From NCBI GenBank assembly GCA_023437285.1, contig JAEZGP010000683.1:1-11628 (forward strand): DNA of 11,628 nucleotides, given 5' to 3'. The stretch comes from Actinomycetes bacterium (GTDB lineage: Bacteria > Actinomycetota > Actinomycetes > Mycobacteriales > Micromonosporaceae). The notes under the pieces are model-generated. The model did not search any database. It worked only from the letters and a program-made list of their open reading frames with translations, and was not told the DNA's origin. This document shows, piece by piece, positions 1-11,628 of the stretch (the first letter of the stretch is position 1; every line of letters begins with the position of its first letter). The translations under genes were made by a program, and so were the position numbers.

Positions 1-309
1 CTCCTGCACTTCAGCCGCACGGGCTCGCTGCCCATGGCGAAGATCGGCCAGCGGCTGCAGGTGCACCCGACCAGCGTCACCAACGCCGTCGACCGCCTGG
101 AGTCCGCCGGCCTGGTCAGGCGTACGCCCCACCCCGCCGACCGGCGCGCCACGCTCGTCGAGATCCTCCCGGCGGGCACGGACCTGGCAGTCGCGGCCAC
201 CGAACAGCTCAACGCGCGGGTGTTCGTCGCGCCGGGCCTGTCGCCCGACAACGTCGCGTCGCTGATCGCGGTGCTCGCCGAACTGCGCCACGAGGCCGGC
301 GACTTCTGA
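1..309 (+). CDS. MarR-family transcriptional regulator (3' part, 5' end outside window)
   Basis: The reading frame is open from base 1 to the TGA at 307-309 and gives 102 residues with no start needed inside the window, so this is the C-terminal two thirds of a protein of usual MarR length (about 140-160 aa). The visible part begins in the winged helix-turn-helix: the helix around AKIGQRLQVHPTSVTNAVDRLE, then the turn into GLVRRTPHPADRRATLVEI. The DRR wing motif is characteristic of MarR proteins. The rest is the C-terminal dimerisation helix. Members of this family are dimeric repressors, often released by phenolic or other small ligands. It is encoded on the same strand as the acyl-CoA ligase, 137 bases upstream, so it might regulate that gene, but the operator in the gap fits the LacI protein better. 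The ATG at base 34 is internal to the conserved domain and is not taken as the start. Confidence 0.88.
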   Translation, partial: LLHFSRTGSLPMAKIGQRLQVHPTSVTNAVDRLESAGLVRRTPHPADRRATLVEILPAGTDLAVAATEQLNARVFVAPGLSPDNVASLIAVLAELRHEAGDF

Positions 310-311
310 CC

Positions 312-326
312 CGGTCGTCGCGACCG
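312..326 (+). terminator. Small hairpin just after the MarR stop codon, possible terminator
   Basis: CGGTCG-TCG-CGACCG forms a perfect 6-bp stem with a 3-base loop, beginning two bases after the MarR stop codon. No T-run follows. U-tract-free hairpins can terminate in actinobacteria, but a stem this short is weak evidence. Confidence 0.3.
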
Positions 327-355
327 CGAGCCTCCCCTCCGCCGGATACGGCTGA

Positions 356-369
356 GACAAACGGTTGAC
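356..369. promoter_or_regulatory. LacI-type operator candidate upstream of the acyl-CoA ligase
   Basis: GACAAACGGTTGAC matches the best operator in the window (GTCAATCGGTTGAC, 5642-5655) at 12 of 14 positions and keeps the central CG. It lies about 80 bases before the ligase GTG. Its right half gives a -35-like TTGACT at 365-370, but I see no good -10 at the proper distance. The same motif precedes the other units of the proposed regulon. Confidence 0.6.
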
Positions 370-446
370 TAACCGGGCTCCTCGGTGTTTCCTCGTCGCA
401 GGCCATCTGATCATCGCGTTGACGCGCCTGTCCGAGGAGGGGCTCA

Positions 447-1958
447 GTGGAGGCAGCCACGACCTTGTGGGAGATCTTCCGGCGGTCCCTGATCACCAGC
501 GCGGACCGCCCCGCGCTCGCCTTCGGCGACGCGGTATGGACCTACCGCGACCTCGGCCGCGCCGTCGCCGCGGCCGCCGCGCGGCTGACCGCGCTCGGGG
601 TACGCCCGAAGGACCGGGTCATCCTGCTCACCGACAACGTCGTCGCCTTCCCCGTCCACGACCTCGCCGTGATGAGCCTCGGTGCCGTCAAGGTGCCGCT
701 GAACTCCATGGTGTCGGCACCCGAGGTCACCGACATCGCGCGACGGGTGCGGCCGCGGGCCGTGCTGGTCAGCCCTTCGCTGGCCGACCGCGTCACCGGC
801 CTCCCGGCCGGGACCGCTGTGGTCAACGCCGACGAGCCCGCCCCCGATCAGGGCGGTGAGCTGCCCGCGATCGGGGCCGCCGGTCCGGACGACGCGGCCG
901 TCATCTACTTCACCGGCGGGACCACCGGCGCCCCGAAGGGGATCGTGCACACCCAGCGCGGCGTGGTCGCCAATCTCTGGGCACACCTGCTGGAGGCCGA
1001 CATCCGCCGCGACGAACGGCTGCTGCTGACCACGCCGCTGGCCCACGCCGCCGGCCTGTTCACGCTGTCGGCGCTGCTGCGCGGCGCGTACGCGCGCATC
1101 GAGCCGTCCTTCGACGTCGACCGGGTCCTCGACCGCATCGACCAGGACGGCATCACCTGGACCTTCGCCGTACCCACCACCATCTACCGGATGCTGGACG
1201 CCGCCGGGGCACGCGACTGGCGGCCCACGACGCTGCGCACGGTGCAGTACGGCGCGGCGCCGATCGCCGCCGACCAGCTCCGCCGCGCCATCGAGGTCTT
1301 CGGGCCCGTGCTGCAGCAGTTGTACGCCCAGACGGAGAGCCCGAACTACGCGACCCTGCTGCGCAAGGAGGACCACGTACGGGCGCTGACGGAGCCGGGC
1401 CTGCTCGCCTCGTGCGGCCGACCGTCGATCATGTGCGACGTGGCCGTCGTGGACGAGGCCGGCAACCCGCTGCCGCCCGGCGAGACGGGCGAGGTCGCGC
1501 TGCGCTCCCCCTACGTCATGGCCGGCTACTGGGAGGACCCTGACGGCGCGGCGAAACGCTTCGTCAACGGTTGGATGCTCACCGGCGACATCGGTTACCA
1601 GGACGCGGAGTCCTATCTGTACCTCGTCGACCGACGAAACGACATGATCGTTTCTGGCGGGATGAACGTGTACTCCATCGAGGTGGAACAGGTCCTCGCC
1701 CGCCACCCGGGAGTACAGGCCGCGGCCGTCGTGGGCCTGCCGCACGACGACTGGGGCGAGGCCGTGCACGCGTACGTCATACCTCGGGGCGACTTCTCCG
1801 ACACCGGGCAGTTGCGCGCGTACTGCCGCGACCTGCTGTCGGCCTACAAGCGTCCGAAGGCCTATCACCTGGTGTCGGCGCTGCCGCTGACCCCGTACGG
1901 GAAGGTCGACAAGAAGGCGCTGCGCGCGGCGGCCACCACACCGGCGATCACGCCGTGA
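447..1958 (+). CDS. Acyl-CoA ligase (class I adenylate-forming enzyme)
   Basis: A 503-residue cytoplasmic enzyme that activates a carboxylic acid with ATP and CoA through an acyl-adenylate. Motifs occur in the expected order: the phosphate-binding loop YFTGGTTGAPK at residues 154-164; the YAQTE motif (A5) at 293-297; a TGD motif near 380; YLVDRR at 392-397 with the ribose-binding Asp395; GMNVYSIEVE at the hinge; and the catalytic lysine Lys486 in PYGKVDKK near the C terminus. Length is normal for a free-standing ligase of the fatty-acid, aryl or benzoate type; the substrate cannot be read from the sequence. The start is GTG at 447 with GAGGAGG at 434-440, six bases away. An operator-like palindrome at 356-369 links it to the other transcription units here. 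It probably performs the first committed step for the acid imported by the ABC system, the role LvaE has in levulinate catabolism. Confidence 0.93.
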   Translation: MEAATTLWEIFRRSLITSADRPALAFGDAVWTYRDLGRAVAAAAARLTALGVRPKDRVILLTDNVVAFPVHDLAVMSLGAVKVPLNSMVSAPEVTDIARRVRPRAVLVSPSLADRVTGLPAGTAVVNADEPAPDQGGELPAIGAAGPDDAAVIYFTGGTTGAPKGIVHTQRGVVANLWAHLLEADIRRDERLLLTTPLAHAAGLFTLSALLRGAYARIEPSFDVDRVLDRIDQDGITWTFAVPTTIYRMLDAAGARDWRPTTLRTVQYGAAPIAADQLRRAIEVFGPVLQQLYAQTESPNYATLLRKEDHVRALTEPGLLASCGRPSIMCDVAVVDEAGNPLPPGETGEVALRSPYVMAGYWEDPDGAAKRFVNGWMLTGDIGYQDAESYLYLVDRRNDMIVSGGMNVYSIEVEQVLARHPGVQAAAVVGLPHDDWGEAVHAYVIPRGDFSDTGQLRAYCRDLLSAYKRPKAYHLVSALPLTPYGKVDKKALRAAATTPAITP

Positions 1959-2099
1959 GGCGGCTCCCGACAGCTGCCGTCCCGCGGCGCGGAGTCGGGG
2001 AGACCATCGGCGGTGGGGCCAGCGGCCTGGACGGCAACGCCGCCGCGGCCATCATGCTCCGCGCCCCCGCCTAGCCTCGGCGTCCGCCCACGGGTACGC

Positions 2100-2137
2100 G
2101 TTGACACCGGTGAGGGGGCGCCCTCACGGGTGTCAAC
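2100..2137. terminator. Long hairpin, bidirectional terminator between converging genes
   Basis: Bases 2100-2116 and 2121-2137 are inverted repeats that pair at 16 of 17 positions (a single G-G mismatch at 2109/2128) around a GGCG loop. The hairpin sits between the stop codon of the rightward ligase (1958) and that of the leftward VOC gene (2150), where both transcripts should end. There is no clear T-run on either side, which is common for terminators in GC-rich actinobacteria. The rest of the 1959-2149 gap shows nothing else I can name. Confidence 0.8.
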
Positions 2138-2149
2138 CGCTGCGCCGGG

Positions 2150-2563
2150 TCACCGCAGCTTGCAGTTGATCTCCACAGCGTTGTGCGCCGGGTCCAGCAC
2201 GTAGATCTGCTGGTAGCCGTTCAAGGCCCAGTTGCCGGGGTCGGCGAAGTACAGCCCCCGTGCGCGCAGCCGCTCGCGTACCACGTCCAGATCGTCCACC
2301 TCGATGGCGACGTGTCCGTTGACCAGCGGGTCCATGTGGAAATGGTTATTGACGCAGAAGTTGTGCGACGGCTTGGCGATGTGCAGTTGCTCAACGCCGT
2401 TGTCGAACCACGCGACGTTCTGCTCGTCGGTCTCGAAGACGCCCCGGTCGCGCTCCTTGAAGGCCGGCGGCCGCTCCTGCATGCCGAGCACCTCGGTGTA
2501 GAACTTGGCCGTTTCCCGAACGTTGTGCGCCGGGACGTTCACGTGGTGCAGCTTCCAGCCCAT
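2150..2563 (-). CDS. VOC-superfamily (glyoxalase/extradiol dioxygenase fold) protein
   Basis: A 137-residue single-domain protein with two beta-alpha-beta-beta-beta modules. The first module opens with KLHHVNVPAHNVRETAKFYTEVLGM and the second with VNGHVAIEVDDLDVVRERLRARG. The usual metal positions of the fold appear as His7, His61 or Glu58, His84 and Glu131 (in NAVEIN), so metal binding looks intact. The superfamily includes glyoxalase I, methylmalonyl-CoA epimerase, extradiol dioxygenases and drug-resistance proteins, and I cannot choose among them. The length suits a glyoxalase or epimerase-like protein better than a two-domain extradiol dioxygenase. The ATG at 2563 is preceded by AAAGGAAG. 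It lies 78 bases after the ABC ATPase on the same strand with no evident terminator between, so it is probably the last gene of the importer operon and acts on the imported compound or a metabolite of it. Confidence 0.85.
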   Translation of the reverse strand: MGWKLHHVNVPAHNVRETAKFYTEVLGMQERPPAFKERDRGVFETDEQNVAWFDNGVEQLHIAKPSHNFCVNNHFHMDPLVNGHVAIEVDDLDVVRERLRARGLYFADPGNWALNGYQQIYVLDPAHNAVEINCKLR

Positions 2564-2641
2564 CAGGCTTCCTTTCGATGAGAGTTGCTTCAGCGCGGCG
2601 TTCCGAACGACGCCATCGCTGGCCGGGCGACTGACAGGTCG

Positions 2642-3490
2642 TCAGCGCAAGAGTTCCCACAGCTCGCGTTCCAGGTCGCGGAATTCCTGGCTCACCACCA
2701 GTTGATCCAGGTCCCGTGGTCGCTCGAAGGGGATGTCCACTTCCCGCAGGATCTTGCCGCCGGAGAGCAGGACCAGCCGGTCCGCCAGCAGCAGCGCCTC
2801 GGTGAGATCGTGGGTCACCAGGACCACACTGGCGCTGGTGCCCGCCCAGGTCTCGAGGAAGACCTGCTGGGATTCGCGGCGGGTCTGCGCGTCGAGCGCC
2901 GAGAACGGTTCGTCCATGAGCAGCAGCTCCGGCTCGCGCACCCACGTACGGGCCAGCGCGACCCGCTGTCGCATGCCCTGCGACAGCTGCCAGGGAAGCC
3001 GGTTGACCGCGTGGCCGAGACCGACCCGTTTGAGGATCGCCACGGCCGCGTCGCGGCGCTGAGCGCGGGGCCGGCCGAGGATCTCCAGCCCCAGTTCGAC
3101 ATTCCGGCGCGCGGTACGCCAGGGCATCAGGGCGTCCCGGGCGAACATGAACCCCATGCGGGACCGGGCGTCGCGCGGCGGTCCGCCGAGGATGGACACC
3201 TCTCCCTCGTCGGGGTCGAGTAGCCCGGACAGCACATTGAGGATGGTCGTCTTCCCAGAGCCGCTGCGACCAACAAGCACGAGGAACTCGCCGTCGCGGC
3301 AGCGCAGCGAGACGTCGTCCAGCGCGGGTTGGTCCGCGGACGCCCCAGCGAACCTGACGGTGATGTGGTCCAGCGAGAAGGCCAACCCGCTGTTGTCCGT
3401 GCCGGCCGCCGGGGCGGGCGGGGACGCGGACTCCGAATCGGACATGTTCGTCGGGCCCCCTTGATGCGTATCAATCTTCGCCACGGTCAC
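2642..3490 (-). CDS. ABC importer ATP-binding protein (nitrate/sulfonate/taurine type)
   Basis: The cytoplasmic ATPase of the importer encoded with the two genes upstream; 282 residues from the chosen start. Visible motifs: Walker A GRSGSGKT at 74-81 (Lys80), signature LSQGM at 169-173 in place of LSGGQ, Walker B LLLMDEP at 189-195 (Glu194), D-loop SALD, and switch His227 in VTHD. The Q-loop reads FARDALMPW, so residue 117 is alanine where the conserved glutamine is expected; the DALMPWR context is otherwise typical of the SsuB/TauB group. Start: a perfect AGGAGG overlaps the permease stop codon. GTG at 3490 is 4 bases from it and GTG at 3484 is 10 bases, while ATG at 3445 (giving 267 aa) has only a weaker AAGGGGG. 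I take 3490, but 3484 is about equally likely. The frame stays open far upstream, but there it is antisense-independent shadow of the permease gene. Confidence 0.92.
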   Translation of the reverse strand: MTVAKIDTHQGGPTNMSDSESASPPAPAAGTDNSGLAFSLDHITVRFAGASADQPALDDVSLRCRDGEFLVLVGRSGSGKTTILNVLSGLLDPDEGEVSILGGPPRDARSRMGFMFARDALMPWRTARRNVELGLEILGRPRAQRRDAAVAILKRVGLGHAVNRLPWQLSQGMRQRVALARTWVREPELLLMDEPFSALDAQTRRESQQVFLETWAGTSASVVLVTHDLTEALLLADRLVLLSGGKILREVDIPFERPRDLDQLVVSQEFRDLERELWELLR

Positions 3491-3494
3491 GGAT

Positions 3495-3500
3495 CCTCCT
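3495..3500 (-). promoter_or_regulatory. Ribosome binding site AGGAGG that decides the ATPase start
   Basis: On the minus strand AGGAGG overlaps the TAG stop of the permease (3501-3499) and precedes GTG codons at 3490 (spacing 4) and 3484 (spacing 10), both in frame with the ATPase. This favours a start here over the downstream ATG at 3445 and implies translational coupling with the permease. Confidence 0.6.
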
Positions 3501-4356
3501 AGGGGGCCTTCCACCACAGCAGCCGGCGTTCGACGATTCCCGCGATGGTGTTCAAGAGGGTGCCGATGACGATCAGCACCGCGATGACGGCGTAGACGTA
3601 GTCGAGCTGGAAGTTGCCCGAGTACTGGGCGACCAACTGCCCTAGGCCCTCGCGGGCGGCGATCATCTCGGATGTCACCACACCGAGCAGGCTGTAGATC
3701 AGTCCGAGCCGAAGGCCCGCGAAGATCGAGGGCACGGCCACGGGGAACAACAGCTTGACGAAGACAGCTCGTCGGCTGGCCCCCATGACCTCCATCAGTC
3801 GCACCACGTCCGGATCGGCCGCGTGGACGCCGGCCCGTGCGTTCAGGATGATCACGAAGATGACGACGGAGAACGCCAACGCGACCTTCGAGGTCAGTCC
3901 GATACCGAACATGATGATGAACACTGGACCGAAGGCGATACGGGGAGCACTGTTCAGCGCGCTCAGGTACGGAGTGACGATCCGCTCGATGGTGGGCGAG
4001 AGCGCCAGACCGAGACCCGTCGACACCCCGATCACCGCGGCGAGGCCGAGCGCGATCAGGGTCGCCTGGATGGTCGACCACATGTGCGGCCACAAGGCGC
4101 CAGTGCTGACGAGATCGCTGAGCGCGGTCCAGACCTGCGGGGGACTACGGACGACGATAGGCCGGCCGATCTTGAAGTGAGCCGCGAGAGCCCACAGTCC
4201 GATGAACCCGACGAAGAGCAGCACCTGCGCGCACAGGACTCCCACGCGTCCCAACGTGGACCGGCGCTGCCCTCCGTCGCGGTTGCGGGCGCCCCGCCGG
4301 ACCGTCGCCTCTTTCTTCTCCTCCGATGCGAGCGGGTCGGCCAGGGCGGCACTCAT
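3499..4356 (-). CDS. ABC importer permease (SsuC/TauC-like)
   Basis: A 285-residue inner-membrane protein with a cytoplasmic charged N terminus (residues 1-36) and hydrophobic segments near 38-58, 96-119, 143-172 (probably two spans), 204-226 and 255-276, as in binding-protein-dependent permeases of the BPD_transp_1 fold. The cytoplasmic EAA loop that docks the ATPase is at about 189-210: EVMGASRRAVFVKLLFPVAVP. Length is normal for SsuC/TauC/NrtB relatives. The ATG at 4356 overlaps the stop of the substrate-binding protein gene in an ATGA arrangement, and the stop overlaps the ribosome site of the ATPase gene, so the three importer genes are translationally coupled. Upstream in-frame codons up to 4509 lie inside the preceding gene and are rejected as start. 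The permease presumably works as a homodimer, since only one permease gene is present. The transported compound is not evident from its sequence. Confidence 0.93.
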   Translation of the reverse strand: MSAALADPLASEEKKEATVRRGARNRDGGQRRSTLGRVGVLCAQVLLFVGFIGLWALAAHFKIGRPIVVRSPPQVWTALSDLVSTGALWPHMWSTIQATLIALGLAAVIGVSTGLGLALSPTIERIVTPYLSALNSAPRIAFGPVFIIMFGIGLTSKVALAFSVVIFVIILNARAGVHAADPDVVRLMEVMGASRRAVFVKLLFPVAVPSIFAGLRLGLIYSLLGVVTSEMIAAREGLGQLVAQYSGNFQLDYVYAVIAVLIVIGTLLNTIAGIVERRLLWWKAP

Positions 4357-5390
4357 GCCCGTGGGTCCTCGCTCGCGCACGGCCCGAAGATCCACTCGCC
4401 GAACGGTGGCGTGGTCTGCTCCTGAGGCGAGTTGTACTTCGTCTGCGCCTCCCACATCTGCGAAGTCAACGCCGTCGGGGTCTTCCACACGGCGCCGTAC
4501 TTCTGCCACATCGTCTTGGCGACGGCCGCGTCGAGCTGCAGGTTCTTGGCCAGGATCGCCGAGACGGCGTCGGCATTCGCCGGGTTGACAGCCCAGTCCC
4601 GCGCGTCCAGGTAAGCCCGGCAGTAGTCGAGCACAGTCTTCTCGTTGTTCTTCAGGTAGTCACAGGTAGTGATCTGGTGACTGATGATGACATCGTTGAG
4701 CGGGCTCGTGTCCGGGTTGTTCACCAGGTCGACAACCATCTGGTAGCTGCCCTCGGGCAGCACTTCGGATGCCGGCGGGAAAGCCGCCATGGCGTCAACG
4801 GCGCCCTTGTCGAGCGCCGCCACCGCGGTCGCCCCGACACCGACGGCCACGTACGTGACGTCGCTGTCCTGCACGCCCGCCGCGGCGAGGACCTTGCGGG
4901 TGTTGCGGTCCGTCGCGCTGCCGAGGTTCGGCACGCCGATCTTGAGGCCCTTGAGATCCGCCAGGCCGCCCGGGAAGGCGTCGGATGTCTTGCTCGGCAA
5001 CGCCAAGCCCTTACGCGCCACGATATTGATCGAGTTGCCGTGCCCGGTGGAGAGCACCTTGAAGCACTCGCCCTGGGAGGCCGCCTGCACGACGTTGCTC
5101 TGCGGGCCGTAGAAGATGTCGAGCTCACCCCGCAGCGCGGAAGTCACCGCAACCTGGCCCGTCTCCATCGGCATGAGGGTGACGTCAAGACCACGGTTCT
5201 TGAAGAAGCCCTGCTCGTCTGCGACCAGGTCCATCAGGCCGATGAGTGCGTTCTTCTGCCAGGCGACCCGCACCTTGGCGGAGCCGCCATCACCCTCCGC
5301 ATCGCCACCGTCACTGCCACATCCGGCGGTCACCGCCAGCACTACCGCCATTCCGGCGGCCGCCCAGGCGGCCCGTCGAAACTTGATCAC
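4353..5390 (-). CDS. ABC importer substrate-binding lipoprotein (NMT1/SsuA-like)
   Basis: A 345-residue extracytoplasmic binding protein. The N terminus has basic residues, a hydrophobic stretch and the lipobox VTAGC with Cys24 as the predicted lipidated residue, followed by a Gly/Asp/Ser-rich linker to about residue 38. The mature part follows the NMT1/THI5/SsuA pattern: VRVAWQKNALIGLMDLVADEQGF, then GLDVTLMPMETGQVAVTSALRGELDIFYG, then LKGLKIGVPNLGSATD at 146-161. This family binds taurine, sulfonates, nitrate, phthalate, pyrimidine precursors and other small anions, so a carboxylate ligand is plausible but unproven. Four further cysteines (109, 243, 257, 338) could form disulfides outside the cell. 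The start is GTG at 5390, with AAGGAG five bases before it. It is first in the importer operon, and an operator-like site lies about 140 bases upstream. Confidence 0.93.
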   Translation of the reverse strand: MIKFRRAAWAAAGMAVVLAVTAGCGSDGGDAEGDGGSAKVRVAWQKNALIGLMDLVADEQGFFKNRGLDVTLMPMETGQVAVTSALRGELDIFYGPQSNVVQAASQGECFKVLSTGHGNSINIVARKGLALPSKTSDAFPGGLADLKGLKIGVPNLGSATDRNTRKVLAAAGVQDSDVTYVAVGVGATAVAALDKGAVDAMAAFPPASEVLPEGSYQMVVDLVNNPDTSPLNDVIISHQITTCDYLKNNEKTVLDYCRAYLDARDWAVNPANADAVSAILAKNLQLDAAVAKTMWQKYGAVWKTPTALTSQMWEAQTKYNSPQEQTTPPFGEWIFGPCASEDPRA

Positions 5391-5529
5391 TATTGCTCCT
5401 TGCCGTTACTTGACTGGTACCGGCGCCGGACGAGGACCTTGAGGGGGTTGTCCGGGATGCGCGCCACCCAACGTCAGGCCACATCCCTCCGGCGGATGTC
5501 GCCTAGACAACACCCAAGCTCACCCGCAG

Positions 5530-5543
5530 GTCAATCGTTTGTT
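5530..5543. promoter_or_regulatory. Weak LacI-type operator candidate in front of the ABC importer operon
   Basis: GTCAATCGTTTGTT matches the 5642-5655 operator at 11 of 14 positions; the left half GTCAATCG is exact and the right half is degraded. It lies about 140 bases upstream of the binding-protein GTG, and 112 bp centre to centre from the strong operator, which is close to a whole number of helical turns. Confidence 0.45.
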
Positions 5544-5641
5544 TCAAACTCTTTACCAAGATCTTCGCGAGGGTCACTCAACGAACACAAGGAACCGCAG
5601 AACGTGCACGCCGACGCTGCGACCCCGTACGCGAAGAGATG

Positions 5642-5655
5642 GTCAATCGGTTGAC
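5642..5655. promoter_or_regulatory. LacI-type operator upstream of the cupin gene
   Basis: GTCAATCGGTTGAC, with symmetry extending to 5640-5657 (16 of 18 positions symmetric) around a central CG, as expected for a LacI-family dimer. The identical 14-mer occurs at 10931-10944. Its right arm overlaps the -35 element TTGACC of the cupin promoter, which predicts repression by blocking RNA polymerase. A further half site, CCGATTG, follows at 5660-5666. Confidence 0.75.
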
Positions 5656-5680
5656 CAAACCGATTGCGGCGGCGTACGTT
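5651..5680 (+). promoter_or_regulatory. Predicted sigma-70-type promoter of the cupin gene
   Basis: TTGACC at 5651-5656 and TACGTT at 5675-5680, separated by 18 bases. This would place the transcript start near 5687, about 70 bases before the ATG. The -35 box lies within the operator. Confidence 0.5.
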
Positions 5681-5756
5681 CCCTGTACAACGACCCTTGG
5701 CCGCCCACAGACAGGTGAGGGCCGAGCGGCAGCCCCCGACCATTGAGGAGACCGTG

Positions 5757-6596
5757 ATGGCAACGCAGGTGGTGAACCCCTCTACGAGCGCGTGGGAGGA
5801 GGCGTCGACGCACCGAACCCCCGGCATTGAGATCAAGCCACTGCTGCAGCGGGACGGCGAGGGGCGCAGCTTCGAGTTCAACGTCGTCCGGTTCAGCGGC
5901 GAGGACTTCTGGAGCCCTCGGCACCGGCACAACTTCGACCAGATCCGCATCGGCCTCGAAGGCGAGACCCAGTACGGCCCGCACCGCAAGCTGCCGGCCC
6001 GGACCATCGGCTACTACCCCGAGGGCACCTACTACGGGCCGTTGAGTGTGTCCGGTGGGCCGTCCCTGCAGGCGATCCTCCAGTTCGACGGGGCGGGTCG
6101 CGGTGGCTACGTCAACTACGTGCACCTGGACAAGGCGACCGCCGAACTCAAGGAGCTGGGCGAGTTCCGCAAGGGTTTCTGGCATCCCCACGACGGCGGC
6201 AAGGCCATCGACGGCTACCAGGCCTCCTGGGAACGGGCCACCGGACGCCAGATGATCTACCCTGAACCGCGCTTCGACGAGGCCGTGTACATGAACGTCG
6301 ACGCCTTCGCCTGGGTGCAGGTCGACGGGTCACCGGTCAAGCAGAAGCACCTGGGCTCGTTCGGCGAGCGCGGCCTGTCCATCGGCATGCGCCTCGTCCC
6401 GGCCGGGACTTCGCTGACGATCGGACAGCCGGGCCGGTCTACCGTCGCCTTCGTCCTGACCGGTGAGGTAAACGCCGCCGGTTCCAGCATGGGCCAGCAC
6501 GCGGCGCTGCTCGTCGAGGAGCAGGACGTTGTCGACGCCGTCGGCGTGGCGGACGCCAGCGAGCTGGTCATCATCACGCTTCCGACGTTCGACTGA
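5757..6596 (+). CDS. Two-domain cupin-like protein of unknown function
   Basis: A 279-residue soluble protein. The N-terminal half carries a cupin motif SPRHRHNFDQIRIGLEGE with His56, His58 and Gln62 at metal-ligand positions; the second motif reads PEGTYYGP (88-95), with Tyr93 where the third histidine is usual. The C-terminal half (about 190-279) looks like a second, degenerate barrel without an HxH pair. So a metal site is possible in domain 1 but atypical. I do not know its reaction; bicupins include dioxygenases, isomerases and non-catalytic binding proteins. The ATG at 5757 has GAGGAG six bases upstream; the adjacent GTG at 5754 is too close to that site. It is transcribed divergently from the importer operon from a promoter covered by the strong operator, so it should be induced with the importer and is probably a dedicated enzyme of the same route. 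Confidence 0.85.
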   Translation: MATQVVNPSTSAWEEASTHRTPGIEIKPLLQRDGEGRSFEFNVVRFSGEDFWSPRHRHNFDQIRIGLEGETQYGPHRKLPARTIGYYPEGTYYGPLSVSGGPSLQAILQFDGAGRGGYVNYVHLDKATAELKELGEFRKGFWHPHDGGKAIDGYQASWERATGRQMIYPEPRFDEAVYMNVDAFAWVQVDGSPVKQKHLGSFGERGLSIGMRLVPAGTSLTIGQPGRSTVAFVLTGEVNAAGSSMGQHAALLVEEQDVVDAVGVADASELVIITLPTFD

Positions 6597-6601
6597 ACAG
6601 C

Positions 6602-6625
6602 GCCGGGAGTGGGCTCCCCGCCGGC
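6602..6625. terminator. Imperfect hairpin between converging cupin and lacI-type genes
   Basis: GCCGG (6602-6606) and CCGGC (6621-6625) can pair, with an inner GAG/CTC pairing and a bulge. It occupies most of the 36-base gap between two converging stop codons, so it may end both transcripts, but the fold is imperfect and no T-run follows. Confidence 0.3.
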
Positions 6626-6632
6626 TAGCAGG

Positions 6633-7649
6633 TCAGCGGGGACGCCCAGTTGATCCCCGGACGACGAGTTCAGGGGGCGTGGTGACGATCGAGGCTTCCG
6701 GGTCCGCCCCGCTCAGTACCGCCAGAAGGTGGTCGACCGCCGCCGCGCCCAACTCGGTCATCGGTAATGAGACCGTCGTCAGTGGGGGCCAGGTGAACTT
6801 GGCCAGCTCCGCATCGTGCAGAGCGATGATCGACAGCTGGTCCGGCACTGGAACCCCGGCCTGGTGCGCCGCGGCCAGGATGCCGACCGCGAGCATCAGC
6901 GTCGGCGCGAAAACCGCCGTCGGCACCTGGCTGCCGGCCAGCAGCCGGGAGCCAGCAGCGACTCCGGCGTCGCCGGAGAGGTTCTTGGCGGTCACCTGCC
7001 GGACGCGGGCGCCATTGGCCCTGGCCCTGCGACTGAAGGCGTGCGCTCGGTCGCGGGTGGCGTCGAGGTGCTTAGGCCCGGCGACCACGACGATGTCGCG
7101 GTGGCCAAGGTCGAGCAGATGATCCGCGGCGAGTTCGCTCGCGCCGGTGTAGTCGACGGTAGCGGTTCGCCGGCTTCCCGTGACCAGACGGTTGACCACA
7201 ACCACGGGTACGGCGGCATCGGCCAGGGCACACACCGCCTCGTCTGAGAGCGTCGCACCGGCCAGCAGCATTCCGTCGACCCCACGTACGCGATAGTCCT
7301 GCGCCAGCCTACGCAGATCGTCCGTAACCTCGCCGACCACGATCGAGTAGCCCTCCTCGGTGGCCCGGCGGTGGGCTCCGGCGATCACGCGCGAGTAGAC
7401 GGGACTCGTGAACTCAGGCACCACGAAGGCGGCCATGCCGCCCCGCGACGTACGCAGGGCCCGCGCGGCCAGGTTGGGTCGGTAGTCGAGCAACTGCACC
7501 GCGGCGAGCACCCGCTGGCGGGTCGCCTCGGAGATGCTGAGTCTCGGATCACCACTGAGCAGCCGCGAGACCACGCTGATGTCCACGCCGGCGTGCTGCG
7601 CGACCTGGCGCATCGTCGGCGGCCTCGCGAGTGGGCGCTCCGTGGTCAT
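6633..7649 (-). CDS. LacI-family transcriptional regulator
   Basis: A 338-residue repressor of normal family length. The N-terminal helix-turn-helix is at about 13-35 (MRQVAQHAGVDISVVSRLLSG), followed by YRPN at 56-59 and the hinge helix LAARALRTS that inserts into the minor groove at a central CG. The remainder is a periplasmic-binding-protein-like sensor domain: ATVDYTGASELAADHLLDLGHRDIVVVAG, and the C-terminal ending PPELVVRGST. The start is ATG at 7649 with GGGGAG just upstream (spacing short, 3-4 bases). Upstream in-frame codons to 7748 run through the operator region and are rejected. A palindrome matching the other operators lies 22-35 bases before the ATG, which predicts autoregulation. 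The likely targets are the ligase gene, the importer operon, the cupin gene and the SDR operon. The inducer is unknown; a substrate or CoA-ester intermediate of the pathway is a natural guess. Confidence 0.93.
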   Translation of the reverse strand: MTTERPLARPPTMRQVAQHAGVDISVVSRLLSGDPRLSISEATRQRVLAAVQLLDYRPNLAARALRTSRGGMAAFVVPEFTSPVYSRVIAGAHRRATEEGYSIVVGEVTDDLRRLAQDYRVRGVDGMLLAGATLSDEAVCALADAAVPVVVVNRLVTGSRRTATVDYTGASELAADHLLDLGHRDIVVVAGPKHLDATRDRAHAFSRRARANGARVRQVTAKNLSGDAGVAAGSRLLAGSQVPTAVFAPTLMLAVGILAAAHQAGVPVPDQLSIIALHDAELAKFTWPPLTTVSLPMTELGAAAVDHLLAVLSGADPEASIVTTPPELVVRGSTGRPR

Positions 7650-7670
7650 CGTCTCCCCATAGCCGCAACG

Positions 7671-7684
7671 GTCAACCGATTGTC
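7671..7684. promoter_or_regulatory. LacI-type operator in front of the regulator's own gene
   Basis: GTCAACCGATTGTC matches the reverse complement of the 5642-5655 operator (GTCAACCGATTGAC) at 13 of 14 positions and keeps the central CG. It lies 22-35 bases upstream of the regulator's ATG, a position that suits negative autoregulation. I could not assign -35 and -10 boxes here with confidence. Confidence 0.65.
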
Positions 7685-7734
7685 CGACATGTGCAACCCC
7701 TGCGGCGCCAGAATCCTCAGAACAGGAGGCCGCG

Positions 7735-7758
7735 GCCCGGCGCGACATCGTGCCGGGC
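7735..7758 (-). terminator. Hairpin downstream of the phosphotransferase gene, possible terminator
   Basis: GCCCGGC/GCCGGGC plus a C-G and a G-T pair give a 9-bp stem (7735-7743 with 7750-7758) and a six-base loop. It lies about 107 bases beyond the phosphotransferase stop and before the regulator's operator, so it could separate the SDR operon from the lacI-type gene. The minus-strand sequence that follows is only mildly T-rich. Confidence 0.4.
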
Positions 7759-7864
7759 GGTCGAAGCGCCGGGGGGCCGAACGCATGGCAGGATACGCCT
7801 CAGCCGGGCGCCGGAACTCCCGTCGATCTTTTCGGGCGTGTCGGAACCCGCGGCGACGAGCCCG

Positions 7865-8938
7865 TCAGGCGGGTCGTTCACGCAGGAGTTCGAGCCCGCG
7901 TGCGGTGAGGACCGGAACCGCCTTGTCGACCCCGTCGTAACCCGCGCTGATGGTGTGTCCCCCCAGGTGCCGGGCGTGCACCCCCTCCAGGATGACGGCC
8001 AGTTTCATCGCGCCGAGCGCACGGTAGAACGCGAGCTCCGACAGGTCCCGCCCGGCGCGGGACGCGTACGCCTGGGCGACCGCGTCCGTGTCCGGGAAGC
8101 CCGGCCACGCCGTCAGCCCGGCGGTATGCCCGAAGGCCGCGTCCTCGGCGAGGTGGCTGTCATACCAGTACGTGAGGAACATCCCGAGGTCGGCGAGCGG
8201 ATCGCCCAACGTGGACAGCTCCCAGTCCAGGACGGCGGCGATGCGCGGCGGGTCGCCGGACAGGTCGACGATGGTGTTGTCCAGCCGGAAGTCGCCATGC
8301 ACGATCGCGTTGTCGCTACGGGGCGGCACCCGCTCGGCCAGTCCGGCGAACAGCCGCGCCATGTCCGGCAGGTCGCGCGTGGCGGTACGTTGCCATTGTT
8401 CGGCCCAGCGTTTCACCTGCCGCGCCGTGTAGCCCTCCGGCCGGCCGAAGGCCGACAGGCCAGCGGCGCCGGGGTCCACCGCGTGCAGTGCGACAAGGGC
8501 GTCGATGAGGCCGTCGCAGAGGGCGGCACGTTGCGCCACGGTGAGCGCCGCCGTGTCGCCGGCACCACGCAGGACGGTGCCGGCCACCTCGGCCATGACG
8601 TAGAACGGGGCGCCGAGAACACCGGTGTCGGTACACAACGCCAGCGGTACCGGCACCGGCACCGCCGCGCCTCCCGCGTCGGCGAGGGCGCGCTGCACGG
8701 TGTACTCCCGAACCATGTCGTGCGCGCTGGGCACGACGCCGGCCAGGGGCGGCCGACGCAGCACGACGGTGCCCGTCGGCACGAGTACCCGGTAGGTGAT
8801 GTTGGACAGTCCGCCGGCGATGACGCTGGCCCGCCACGTGTCGCCGGCCTCCAGTTGGGGCAGTTCGCGCGCGAACCACGCGGTCAGCGCGGCCCGGGGA
8901 AGGCCGGGCAGCTCAGCCGCGTAGGCCTGGTCGGTCAT
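7865..8938 (-). CDS. APH-family phosphotransferase (ACAD10/11 kinase-domain-like, LvaA-like)
   Basis: A 357-residue aminoglycoside-phosphotransferase/choline-kinase-fold protein. The glycine-containing nucleotide loop is at about 40-50 (IAGGLSNITYRV), VVLRRPP at 58-64 follows, the catalytic loop is HGDFRLDN at 214-221 (His214, Asp216, Asn221), and the metal-binding DWE is at 238-240 in VLDWELSTLGDPLADLG. All key residues look present. Sequences of this pattern (GGLSN, LRRPP, HGDFRLDN, DWELSTLGDPLADL) belong to the group related to the kinase half of ACAD10/ACAD11 and to LvaA, which phosphorylates 4-hydroxyacyl-CoA, rather than to antibiotic resistance enzymes. Its ATG overlaps the stop of the acyl-CoA dehydrogenase gene (ATGA), so the two are translationally coupled. 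That pairing strongly suggests they act in sequence: phosphorylate a hydroxyacyl-CoA, then eliminate phosphate. LvaA needs a small partner, LvaB; no such gene is visible here. Confidence 0.9.
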   Translation of the reverse strand: MTDQAYAAELPGLPRAALTAWFARELPQLEAGDTWRASVIAGGLSNITYRVLVPTGTVVLRRPPLAGVVPSAHDMVREYTVQRALADAGGAAVPVPVPLALCTDTGVLGAPFYVMAEVAGTVLRGAGDTAALTVAQRAALCDGLIDALVALHAVDPGAAGLSAFGRPEGYTARQVKRWAEQWQRTATRDLPDMARLFAGLAERVPPRSDNAIVHGDFRLDNTIVDLSGDPPRIAAVLDWELSTLGDPLADLGMFLTYWYDSHLAEDAAFGHTAGLTAWPGFPDTDAVAQAYASRAGRDLSELAFYRALGAMKLAVILEGVHARHLGGHTISAGYDGVDKAVPVLTARGLELLRERPA

Positions 8939-10122
8939 CCGGTCCGCCGTTCCCGGGCCCGGCGGGCGGCGCGCTTGGCGATCGACATGCGGTGGGTCTC
9001 GGAGGACCCGTCATAGATCCGGAAGGCCCGGATGTCGGCGTAGATGCGGCCCACGACGAGATCCTCGCTCGTGCCGAGCCCGCCGCACAGTTGCACCGCG
9101 CGATCGACGACCCGGCCGACGGCCTCACTGACAAACACCTTCGTACGGCTCGACGACTCGGTGTTCCGGGCGCCCTGCGCGATCTCCCAGCTGGTCTGCC
9201 ACAGCAGGGCACGGGCGGCGTGCAGGTCGATCTCGTTGTCGGCGATCAGCTGCTGGGCCATGCCGAGGTCGGCCAGCGGGGACCCGAACAGTTCCCGGGT
9301 CACCGCCCGGTCGGTGGCGATGTCGTGGGCGCGGCGGGCGGCGCCCAGCCACCGCATGCAGTGGGTCAGCCGGGCCGGCGCCAACCGCGCCTGGGCATAG
9401 CGGAAGCCCTCGCCGGGCTCCCCCAGCACCTGGTCGTCCGGCACGAAGAGGTCGTCGATGCGTACCTCGCAGTGACCGCCGATCATGGTCGAGTCGATCG
9501 TGCGGGCGTGCCTGCCGACCGTCCAGCCGGGGGTGTCGGCGTCGACCAGGAACATGGTGGAACCGGCACCGTCGGGCCGCCCGCCCGCGGCCATCAGGAT
9601 GGCGAACGCCGCACCGTCCGCACCGGTGATGAGGTGCTTGACGCCGTTGACGCGCCAGCCGCCGTCGGCCCGGGAGGCGGTCGTACGCAGCGCCGACGGG
9701 TCCGAGCCCGCACCCGGCGGCGGCTCGGTCATCGCGAAGCACGAACGCACCTGGCCCGTGGCCAGCGGCTTGAGGTAGCGGTCGCGCTGGTCGGGCGAGG
9801 CGATCTGGTCGAGCAGGTGGATGTTGCCCTCGTCGGGTGCCGCGCAGCCCAGCGCCAGCGGACCGAGCAGGCTCGTACCGGCCTCTTCGAGCAGCACCGC
9901 CACGTCGTCGAAGGCGAACCCGCCGCCGCCCAGTTCCTCGGCCACCTGCGGCGCGAAGACGCCCCTCCGTCGGGCCGCCTCCTGCAGGTCGCGCCGCAGC
10001 GCGTCGTCGACGCCGGCGGTGAACGCCTCCTGCTCCCTCGGGATCACCACCTCCCGCAGGAACGCGCGAATGTCGTCACGCCACTGCGCCGTGCGTGTCG
10101 ATACCGTGAAGTCGAAACCCAC
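8935..10122 (-). CDS. Acyl-CoA dehydrogenase (ACAD10/11- and LvaC-like clade)
   Basis: A 395-residue FAD enzyme of normal length. The helical N-terminal domain is followed by the flavin-binding stretch CFAMTEPPPGAGSDPSALRTT (128-148), the beta domain with WRVNGVKHLITGA, and the C-terminal helical domain with AVQLCGGLGTSEDLVVGRIYADIRAFRIYDGSSETHRMSIAK. In that last motif Asp371 stands where medium-chain dehydrogenases have the catalytic glutamate; aspartate here is usual in the ACAD10/11 group. The start is GTG at 10122, with GGAGG eight bases upstream, 15 bases after the SDR stop. The kinase gene follows with a 4-base overlap. An ordinary alpha,beta-dehydrogenation is one possibility. Elimination of phosphate from a 4-phosphoacyl-CoA to give an enoyl-CoA, as in LvaC, fits the neighbours better, but it is inferred from context. 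Confidence 0.92.
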   Translation of the reverse strand: MGFDFTVSTRTAQWRDDIRAFLREVVIPREQEAFTAGVDDALRRDLQEAARRRGVFAPQVAEELGGGGFAFDDVAVLLEEAGTSLLGPLALGCAAPDEGNIHLLDQIASPDQRDRYLKPLATGQVRSCFAMTEPPPGAGSDPSALRTTASRADGGWRVNGVKHLITGADGAAFAILMAAGGRPDGAGSTMFLVDADTPGWTVGRHARTIDSTMIGGHCEVRIDDLFVPDDQVLGEPGEGFRYAQARLAPARLTHCMRWLGAARRAHDIATDRAVTRELFGSPLADLGMAQQLIADNEIDLHAARALLWQTSWEIAQGARNTESSSRTKVFVSEAVGRVVDRAVQLCGGLGTSEDLVVGRIYADIRAFRIYDGSSETHRMSIAKRAARRARERRTG

Positions 10123-10137
10123 CTGCCACCCCTCCGC

Positions 10138-10890
10138 TCAGGTCGCGGTCCAGCCGCCGTCGACGACCAGCACCGAACCCGTCACGAACGAGGCGGCCGG
10201 TGTGGCCAGGAACACCGCGGCGGGCACGAGTTCGTCGGGCCGGCCGAAGCGCGCCATGGGAACGTGTCCGAGCAGGTCGGCCATCACCTTGGGCTTACGC
10301 ATCAACGCCGCCGTGAGGTCGGTCTCGAAGTAGCCCGGCGCCAGCGCGTTCACCCGGATCCCGGCGCCGGCCCAGTCGACCGCCAGGGTGCGCACCAGCG
10401 CCTCGACCGCGCCCTTCGAGGCGGAGTACGCGGCCATCCGGCGGCCGGCGGACCGGGCGTGGATGGAGGTGACCGCGACGATGCTGCCTCCCTTGCCGCC
10501 CTCTGCCGTCATGAGGTGGGCGGCGGCGCGCATCGTCCAGAAGGTGCCGTCGAGGTTCACGCCGAGCACGTCGCGCCATTCCTGGTCGCTGACGTCGCGC
10601 GCGTCCTTCACGTGCGGGGAGATTCCGGCGGCGCTCACGCAGGTGTCGAGCCCACCCCACGCCTGCCCGATGGTCTCGGCCGCCGCGCGTACCGAATCCG
10701 GGTCCGCCACGTCGGTCGGCACGACGAGGGCCTTGCGCCCCGCCGCTTCGACGTCGGCGGCGACGTCGCTGAGAGCCTCGGCGGTACGGGCGGAGACGGC
10801 GACGTCGTAGCCGGCGCTCGCGAGCCCGACCGCGATGGCCCGGCCGAGTCCGCGACTCGCCCCGGTCACCCAGGCCCTGTTCGACGCCAT
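10138..10890 (-). CDS. SDR-family oxidoreductase (classical short-chain dehydrogenase)
   Basis: A 250-residue NAD(P)-dependent enzyme of the classical SDR type. Motifs: cofactor-binding TGASRGLG at 9-16; SAAG at 86-89 where NNAG is usual; structural Asn112; catalytic Ser142, Tyr155 and Lys159 (YSASK at 155-159); LAPGYFETDLT after the active site; and a C-terminal VDGG. Arg35 after the second strand (SART) hints at NADP(H), weakly. The start is ATG at 10890 with AGGAG six bases upstream; in-frame codons further upstream cross the promoter and operator. It is the first gene of the SDR, dehydrogenase, kinase operon, transcribed from a promoter with a perfect operator copy. A role in reducing or oxidising a keto/hydroxyl group on the acyl chain, like LvaD on levulinyl-CoA, is consistent with the operon but not shown by the sequence. 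Confidence 0.93.
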   Translation of the reverse strand: MASNRAWVTGASRGLGRAIAVGLASAGYDVAVSARTAEALSDVAADVEAAGRKALVVPTDVADPDSVRAAAETIGQAWGGLDTCVSAAGISPHVKDARDVSDQEWRDVLGVNLDGTFWTMRAAAHLMTAEGGKGGSIVAVTSIHARSAGRRMAAYSASKGAVEALVRTLAVDWAGAGIRVNALAPGYFETDLTAALMRKPKVMADLLGHVPMARFGRPDELVPAAVFLATPAASFVTGSVLVVDGGWTAT

Positions 10891-10930
10891 CTCGGTCTCC
10901 TGCCCGTCACGTCCCCTCAACCGTAGGGAA

Positions 10931-10944
10931 GTCAATCGGTTGAC
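10931..10944. promoter_or_regulatory. LacI-type operator of the SDR operon
   Basis: GTCAATCGGTTGAC, identical over 14 bases to the operator at 5642-5655. It lies just downstream of the -10 box of the predicted SDR promoter, covering the expected transcript start, and about 40 bases before the SDR ATG. A bound repressor here should block initiation. Confidence 0.75.
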
Positions 10945-10950
10945 CAGCTC

Positions 10951-10980
10951 ACGGTATTTCCCTGACCAGGGTGATGTCAA
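10951..10980 (-). promoter_or_regulatory. Predicted sigma-70-type promoter of the SDR operon
   Basis: On the minus strand, a perfect TTGACA (-35, at 10980-10975), an 18-base spacer and TACCGT (-10, at 10956-10951). The start of transcription is expected near 10944, giving a leader of about 53 bases. The -35 box overlaps a GTCAAC half site like those of the operator. The spacer contains CCCTGACCAGGG (10960-10971), a near-palindrome. Confidence 0.65.
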
Positions 10981-11039
10981 CCAGCTCCCGCATCAAGATC
11001 AAATCGCTGCCCTGACCCGATCCGCGCAGAGAGGGGACG

Positions 11040-11628
11040 TCAGCGGTACGTGCGCGACGGCCCGAGATGGGCGTGCTCGTTGAAGGACAACAGGCTCAGA
11101 CCCGAGGACCCCGCGAGCACGCTGGTGATGGACGCGTTCACCATGACCCGGTTGAGCGCGATCACGCCTGCCGGCGGGGCGCCCACGAGCGAACCCGCGA
11201 CGGCGGCGATGACGCCACCCGAGCTGACCACGACAGCGTCCTGACCGGGTGCTAGGCGGGCGGCAACGGCGGCCAACGCCGCGATCGCGCCGGAGACGAA
11301 GGCGTCCCAACCGCCGTCGGCATCGTCGTCGATCCACCGCGCGAGAGCGTGGTCGAGGCGGGCCTGGAACAGGCGACTGTCCCCCGCCGTCGCGGCGTCG
11401 GCGGCCGGGGAACCCGCGTCGCCGGGATCAGTCGGCGGGTACCGGTCGACGAGCCCGAGGTGGTCGTACTCGTTCCAGCGCCTGTCCTCGACGACGCTGG
11501 CAGCGTCCGGGAGTCCGAGCAGGGCCGCGGTGTGCGCCTGTCGGCGCAGCGTGCCCGACACGAGCAACGGTTTGCGGGCGCGTCCGGCAAGCTCCCGTCC
11601 GGCAAGCCCGGCCTGCTCGTGTCCCAGC
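11040..11628 (-). CDS. Histidine-phosphatase-superfamily protein (5' end outside window)
   Basis: The frame is open from the right edge to the TGA at 11042-11040, giving about 195 residues without the N terminus. It starts in GHEQAGLAGREL, which normally follows the catalytic RHG motif by about 20-25 residues, so roughly 25-30 residues, including RHG, are missing. SGTLRRQAHTA and RRWNEYDHL are typical of the actinobacterial phosphoglycerate-mutase-like branch, the latter carrying the acidic residue. Near the C terminus the motif expected to read SHGG reads VVVSSGGVIAAV, so the second catalytic histidine is replaced by serine. The superfamily removes phosphate from diverse small molecules or proteins. 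The substrate is unknown and this variant may be weakly active or inactive. The stop is 150 bases before the SDR ATG on the same strand, with the SDR promoter between, so it is probably a separate transcript. In-frame TTG at 11567 is not a likely start. Confidence 0.85.
   Translation of the reverse strand, partial: LGHEQAGLAGRELAGRARKPLLVSGTLRRQAHTAALLGLPDAASVVEDRRWNEYDHLGLVDRYPPTDPGDAGSPAADAATAGDSRLFQARLDHALARWIDDDADGGWDAFVSGAIAALAAVAARLAPGQDAVVVSSGGVIAAVAGSLVGAPPAGVIALNRVMVNASITSVLAGSSGLSLLSFNEHAHLGPSRTYR

Follow-up and report, generated by a model that had tools for sequence, protein, structure and literature searches.

Does a short palindrome repeated in front of apparently mixed genes mark a single regulon, and which protein would read it? 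The question is raised by an 11,628-nucleotide stretch of a Micromonosporaceae genome (assembly GCA_023437285.1, contig JAEZGP010000683.1, positions 1 to 11,628, forward strand), referred to here as the window. The palindrome stands before an acyl-coenzyme A (acyl-CoA) ligase gene, an ABC importer, a cupin gene, the gene for a LacI-family repressor (6633..7649, minus strand; recognition motif VDISVVSR) and a unit composed of a short-chain dehydrogenase (SDR), an acyl-CoA dehydrogenase (ACAD) and an APH-fold kinase (SDR-ACAD-APH). With a probability of roughly 0.9, a figure that applies to the operator-repressor pairing, the LacI-family repressor uses these palindromes as its operators and the local regulon is real.

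The five sites, all resembling GTCAANCGNTTGAC, a palindrome with two variable positions left open, lie exactly where a sequence-only reading of the window had placed them: GACAAACGGTTGAC at 356, GTCAATCGTTTGTT at 5530, GTCAATCGGTTGAC at 5642, GTCAACCGATTGTC at 7671 and GTCAATCGGTTGAC again at 10931, the copies at 5642 and 10931 being letter-identical, as claimed. Scanning for GTCAAYCGRTTGAC at up to three mismatches returned six matches against 1.26 expected, a number reached in none of 200 shuffles (shuffle maximum 5); the sixth match, at 2994, falls within the ABC ATPase gene. GTCAANCGNTTGAC occurs twice exactly, four times at up to one mismatch and five times at up to two, the latter two counts comparing with 0.025 (maximum 2) and 0.405 (maximum 3) on average in 1,000 dinucleotide shuffles; exact matches in shuffles average 0.001 per window. 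With our own gene starts, all five sites at up to two mismatches are intergenic in a window that is 10.5% intergenic (p 1.3e-5), as are 7 of the 12 at up to three mismatches. The motif was picked after reading the window, so that the window statistics alone overstate the case; tests in other genomes are free of that flaw, and the case for the regulon therefore rests on them.

The repressor carries a LacI helix-turn-helix (PF00356, 4e-12) and a periplasmic-binding-protein-like effector domain (PF13377, 2e-34); its homologues were gathered by protein similarity and the motif was tested in relatives. Micromonospora sp. NPDC047074 and Streptomyces hirsutus encode LacI proteins with 88% and 79% identity, respectively, and cupins with 88% and 76%. 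The best of 11 LacI loci from genome contigs belongs to Acrocarpospora catenulata, encoding a LacI 52% identical to that of the window within the row substrate-binding protein-permease-ATPase-cupin-VOC-LacI-ligase-thiolase, with an exact site lying 202 bases ahead of the substrate-binding protein start. A protein-only search of 394 genomes of the class found LacI at E<=1e-60 in three, Acrocarpospora (the search centre), G311 and G194, all three carrying exact sites in the region around LacI. G311 and G194 (1.5 Mb each) contain three copies of the exact motif apiece, none more than 5.4 kb from the LacI gene. Across the 121 genomes of their order, one of small genomes, the exact motif is conserved in 4/4 genomes with LacI at E<=1e-70 versus 4/117 of the others, where it occurs once each (Fisher p 8e-6, which overstates independence because the four LacI-positive genomes are related). 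For the 10 exact sites in those four (3+3+2+2), the distance to the LacI gene is at most 5.4 kb in every case. The exact motif at the Acrocarpospora operon and its co-occurrence with LacI in other genomes thus support the single LacI-family regulon proposed by the sequence-only reading.

The genes adjoining the G311 LacI belong to other families, including an HpcH/HpaI lyase, CoA-transferase III, MaoC, a mandelate-racemase-type enolase and VOC, together with a 2-oxoacid dehydrogenase E1, an SDR and a sugar-type binding protein. At this locus (L029, around 3707) the operator centres a long inverted repeat between divergent genes, with 22 of 23 base pairs matching outwards. Among plasmids, the whole-window search gave no match; LacI alone matched 146 plasmid records, and of four examined, one has a site at up to one mismatch (at the end of the LacI gene) and three have other helices. 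On a Pseudonocardia plasmid (LacI 41% identical), ATCAAACGATTGAC, with one mismatch, overlaps the end of the LacI gene and precedes cyclase and enoyl-CoA hydratase genes.

The association between motif and LacI follows one recognition-helix type, with exceptions. Examination of 44 loci, several of them near relatives, over 1.5 kb on each side with the LacI gene itself excluded, revealed exact sites at 4 of 10 loci with a VDxS[VL]VSR helix (5/10 at up to one mismatch, 7/10 at up to two), compared with 0/34, 0/34 and 3/34 for other helices (p 0.0015, 0.0002 and 0.0003, respectively). The 34 include L054, whose helix was unparsed, and L099, whose helix was misparsed and reads VSKSIASR; an exact site at L079, four bases past the gene, was lost to the 40-base margin, and the one-mismatch site of L100 lies within its own LacI gene. 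A tree built on 69 LacI rows places all eight rows with a site within one supported half (98/94, 38 rows), where they do not form one group, most other rows of that half coming without DNA for a site check. The Rhodococcus qingshengii plasmid locus L099 carries AGCAACCGGTTGCT and AGCAACCGGTTGCG at 9226 and 12806, near its LacI gene, sharing the core of the motif and differing at the ends, which is consistent with a change of specificity. This set is possibly a sister regulon. The L099 palindromes also lie near CoA-transferase and enoyl-CoA hydratase genes.

The operators before the importer and the cupin appear to be more than single palindromes. The importer operator (5530..5556) is an overlapping pair, 5530-5543 (two mismatches) and 5543-5556 (three mismatches), with a 13-bp step; it is identical at 22 of 27 bases to the Acrocarpospora operator, likewise an overlapping pair with a 13-bp step. 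The cupin operator (5642..5668) joins the exact GTCAATCGGTTGAC to a degenerate second site at 5655-5668 (five mismatches), again 13 bp on. PMC4052901 describes LacI sites that overlap at a spacing of about 13 bp. The weak-looking copy at 5530, which makes up the left half of such a pair, is probably part of a double operator. A 22-bp matrix built from other-genome sites, themselves selected by the motif, gives its four highest window ranks to 5642, 10931 (second), 356 and 5530 and places 7671 seventh, so 5530 is not the weakest copy.

The sites lie 77 (ligase, 356..369, GACAAACGGTTGAC, one mismatch to GTCAANCGNTTGAC), 139 (substrate-binding protein), 101 (cupin), 21 (LacI, 7671..7684) and 40 bases (SDR, 10931..10944, exact GTCAATCGGTTGAC) before the inferred starts, four of them inside the 30-140 range in which PMC4052901, in its treatment of site positions, places more than 75% of LacI sites, with the LacI copy outside. 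The window sites are even palindromes with a central CG, the LacI norm according to section 9 of PMC4052901, in agreement with the earlier attribution of central CG and dyad symmetry to this family. The copy expected before the regulator's own gene is present at 7671..7684 (presumed autoregulation), and an operator also precedes the apparent operon in L001. That every site is intergenic, as claimed, holds with the shorter LacI (7649) and SDR (10890) starts and not with the longest open reading frames, which (to 7748 and 10980, respectively) would span two operator sites. The LacI start at 7649 matches that of homologue P0002 (MTTDRRLAKPPTMRQV versus MTTERPLARPPTMRQV) and is preceded by GGGGAG; for SDR, we infer the start at 10890. 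Promoters were said to accompany all but the weakest site. By eye, looser TTGAC/TANNNT pairs are found for SDR (TTGACA-18-TACCGT, 10980-10951) and cupin (TTGACC-18-TACGTT, 5651-5680). The 10931 operator lies just downstream of the former, over the presumed SDR transcription start, and the TTGACC inside the cupin operator region could be a -35 element.

Several observations weigh against the pairing of motif and repressor. A strict sigma-70 scan of the whole window finds 0 promoters, the part of the promoter claim that did not stand, and 7671, the copy before the LacI gene, fits the outside matrix poorly, worst of the five sites. The four LacI-positive genomes behind the order-wide result are related, their LacI proteins being 71-98% identical to that of G311. 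In Acrocarpospora's order, LacI occurs at E<=1e-60 in 10 of 345 genomes, and nine of these ten matches have no site at up to two mismatches within 1.5 kb; the helices of the nine read VDKA/VDRAVVSR (eight) or VDPSAVSR (one). A phylum sample of 395 further genomes yielded 23 loci, in 21 genomes, that match the LacI alignment at E<=1e-70, and every one of these loci lacks a site at up to one mismatch. Among the VDxS[VL]VSR loci, the L001 site lies 4 kb from its LacI and was scored as a miss, L057 has the VDxSVVSR signature with no site nearby and is a true miss, and the sole site at L002 and at L003 has two mismatches. The Acrocarpospora genome (10.3 Mb) holds three exact motifs, two of them away from the LacI contig, where the 10 kb around each is free of window homologues. 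A site conserved together with a related regulator is nonetheless found in other genomes, the exceptions being L057, L025 and the VDKA/VDRA group. Two side observations belong here: the two further exact Acrocarpospora GTCAACCGGTTGAC sites are loci L035 and L036, and in G213, which gave no LacI match, 19.9 kb of DNA with a cupin homologue contains no site at up to two mismatches.

How far the regulon extends is a separate matter. The repressor's control might be limited to the genes that Acrocarpospora has in the same set (importer, cupin, VOC, LacI and ligase), the SDR-ACAD-APH copy being due to chance or another regulator and the window holding two unrelated pathways. The Acrocarpospora ACAD-APH-SDR genes, which lie on a different contig (C131) from the LacI operon (C126), have no site at up to two mismatches in 14 kb, also a point against the full regulon; the earlier grouping of ligase, importer, cupin, LacI and SDR into one set is thus borne out for the shared core and not for the kinase, dehydrogenase and SDR genes of Acrocarpospora. 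For that part, the argument depends on the window's exact 14-mer by itself. This copy, however, is letter-identical to the cupin copy, an exactness that shuffles almost never reproduce, and it lies close before the SDR start, beside the TTGACA/TACCGT pair and second in the outside matrix, which makes the restricted regulon unlikely. Because the Acrocarpospora counterpart is siteless and on another contig, inclusion of ACAD-APH-SDR in the regulon may be specific to the window's lineage.

A different protein could also bind the palindromes. A MarR-family regulator is encoded at 1..309, cut by the window's left edge, with site 356 in the gap that separates it from the ligase gene; palindromes are bound by MarR proteins as well, and acyl-CoA pathway genes are often among their targets. 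Its 102-residue fragment has no homologue by tblastn (E<=0.01) in eight LacI loci (L001, L002, L003, L029, L030, L095, L096 and L098), an operator copy precedes the LacI gene, and PMC4052901 gives a central CG and doubled sites at 13 bp as features of LacI, so that assignment of the sites, including the copy between MarR and ligase, to MarR is very improbable. That the palindrome is merely a common, composition-favoured sequence with no regulatory role, as the 304 Acrocarpospora places at up to two mismatches (modestly above 222 for a reversed-pattern control) might suggest, is scarcely credible against the shuffles, the intergenic restriction of the window sites and the near-confinement of exact sites order-wide to LacI-positive genomes, clustered at LacI.

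The genes under the LacI operators, as read here, encode import and acyl-CoA functions. The acyl-CoA ligase (AMP-binding; 447..1958, plus strand) is 63% identical to that of the Acrocarpospora operon. The importer unit, on the minus strand, is composed of an NMT1/SsuA-like substrate-binding protein (4353..5390, 63% identical to its Acrocarpospora counterpart), a permease (3499..4356, 68%), an ATPase (2642..3466, frame as given with the true start unsettled, 70%) and, probably as its last gene, a VOC/glyoxalase-fold protein (2150..2563, 79%). The two-domain cupin (5757..6596, plus strand; 59%), for which 77 homologues were found, has no Pfam match; its predicted fold (mean predicted local distance difference test score 93) is similar to that of ChrR and of bicupins of the quercetin-dioxygenase type, with <=17% identity among the 50 matches listed, a likeness too general to name a reaction. 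Neither VOC nor cupin has a PDB sequence match. A C-terminal thiolase remnant at 1940-2059 (plus strand) is 55% identical over residues 338-374 of the thiolase following the Acrocarpospora ligase, and the remainder of the thiolase gene was not found in the window.

The second unit, also on the minus strand, opens with the SDR (10138..10890), followed by the ACAD (8935..10122) and the APH-fold kinase (7865..8938). The dehydrogenase has the HCMR motif and the Asp base of ACAD10/11 and LvaC, its THCMR and RIYDG aligning with ACAD11. The kinase is similar to the ACAD11 kinase domain (E 6e-44 against the ACAD11 chain), with HGDFRLDN aligned to HGDFKLDN, marking it as LvaA/ACAD11-like. PMC12440821 links the HCMR motif and the Asp base to the turnover of 4-phosphoacyl-CoA by ACAD10/11. 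A histidine phosphatase (11040..11627, minus strand; PF00300), cut by the window end, lies upstream of the SDR operator and may belong to the same pathway. The lva-like gene parts, together with the ACAD11-like dehydrogenase and kinase, point to a role in import and beta-oxidation; at roughly even odds, judged from the encoded proteins, the set would import an organic acid and feed it into beta-oxidation via 4-hydroxyacyl-CoA (lva/ACAD11-type).

The following mechanism would account for the arrangement; in it, we infer LacI binding, the direction of control, the inducer and the substrate. Without inducer, a LacI dimer would occupy GTCAANCGNTTGAC and block five promoters, those of ligase, importer, cupin, SDR-ACAD-APH and the LacI gene itself, and between importer and cupin it could make use of double sites overlapping at a 13-bp step. 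Release of the repressor would come from a small molecule imported by the ABC importer, or from its metabolite, leading to expression of the whole set. The enzymes would most likely convert an organic acid to its CoA ester, and a 4-oxo/4-hydroxyacyl-CoA would be phosphorylated, lose the phosphate and enter beta-oxidation in the manner of lva/ACAD11 pathways. In Acrocarpospora a single double operator precedes the shared genes, which make up one apparent operon; the window has the set divided among several units, each with its own operator copy.

Beyond the window, several VDxS[VL]VSR members have CoA-thioester enzymes as neighbours instead of the usual sugar genes: L001 a ligase and a thiolase, L029 CoA-transferase III, MaoC and HpcH/HpaI, and L098 an enoyl-CoA hydratase. 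Tentatively, and at a little under even odds, this LacI group may have kept GTCAANCGNTTGAC across distant actinobacterial lineages while the controlled pathway changed, including a takeover in the window of an ACAD11-type 4-hydroxyacyl-CoA pathway via the SDR-ACAD-APH operator. The LacI reading turns loosely annotated genes into a putative inducible system with a defined predicted operator, suggests a recognition-helix-to-operator rule for one LacI group, and ties a cupin family with no Pfam match to transport and a CoA-ester pathway. The LacI switch may sense an organic acid instead of a sugar.

LacI regulons are already known in kind; that of the window is a new one with an unusual, apparently non-sugar target set. 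In the literature searched, which covered papers outside subscription, the 14-mer spelling GTCAATCGGTTGAC was not found, and the listings turned up no LacI regulon for levulinate, acyl-CoA or other non-sugar control. The window regulon resembles the local LacI regulons of RegPrecise (Ravcheev et al. 2014, PMC4052901), as presented in the sections on sites and pathways, in its even palindromes with central CG before several local operons, in overlapping sites about 13 bp apart and in sites mostly 30-140 bp upstream. The same sections report that 176 of 182 LacI groups with assigned pathways control carbohydrate metabolism, whereas the window targets are acyl-CoA enzymes and an NMT1-type importer.

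The enzymes recall the levulinic acid (lva) cluster of P. putida and P. citronellolis, which according to the lva passages of PMC6692424 shares an acyl-CoA ligase, an SDR, an LvaA-like kinase and an LvaC-like dehydrogenase with the window and, in P. citronellolis, a histidine phosphatase gene; P. citronellolis is reported there to have no LvaB in the region analysed. These passages mention no ABC importer, cupin or VOC, whereas the window has all three, and they describe a sigma-54-type regulator, LvaR, in place of LacI. ACAD10 and ACAD11, as described in part of PMC12440821, likewise combine kinase and dehydrogenase: the window ACAD has HCMR, and its arginines align with R626 and R631 and its Asp with D753 of ACAD11 (PMC12440821 numbering; the index of the aligned chain is one lower). 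The two activities reside in two separate proteins in the window and in one fused protein in mammals.

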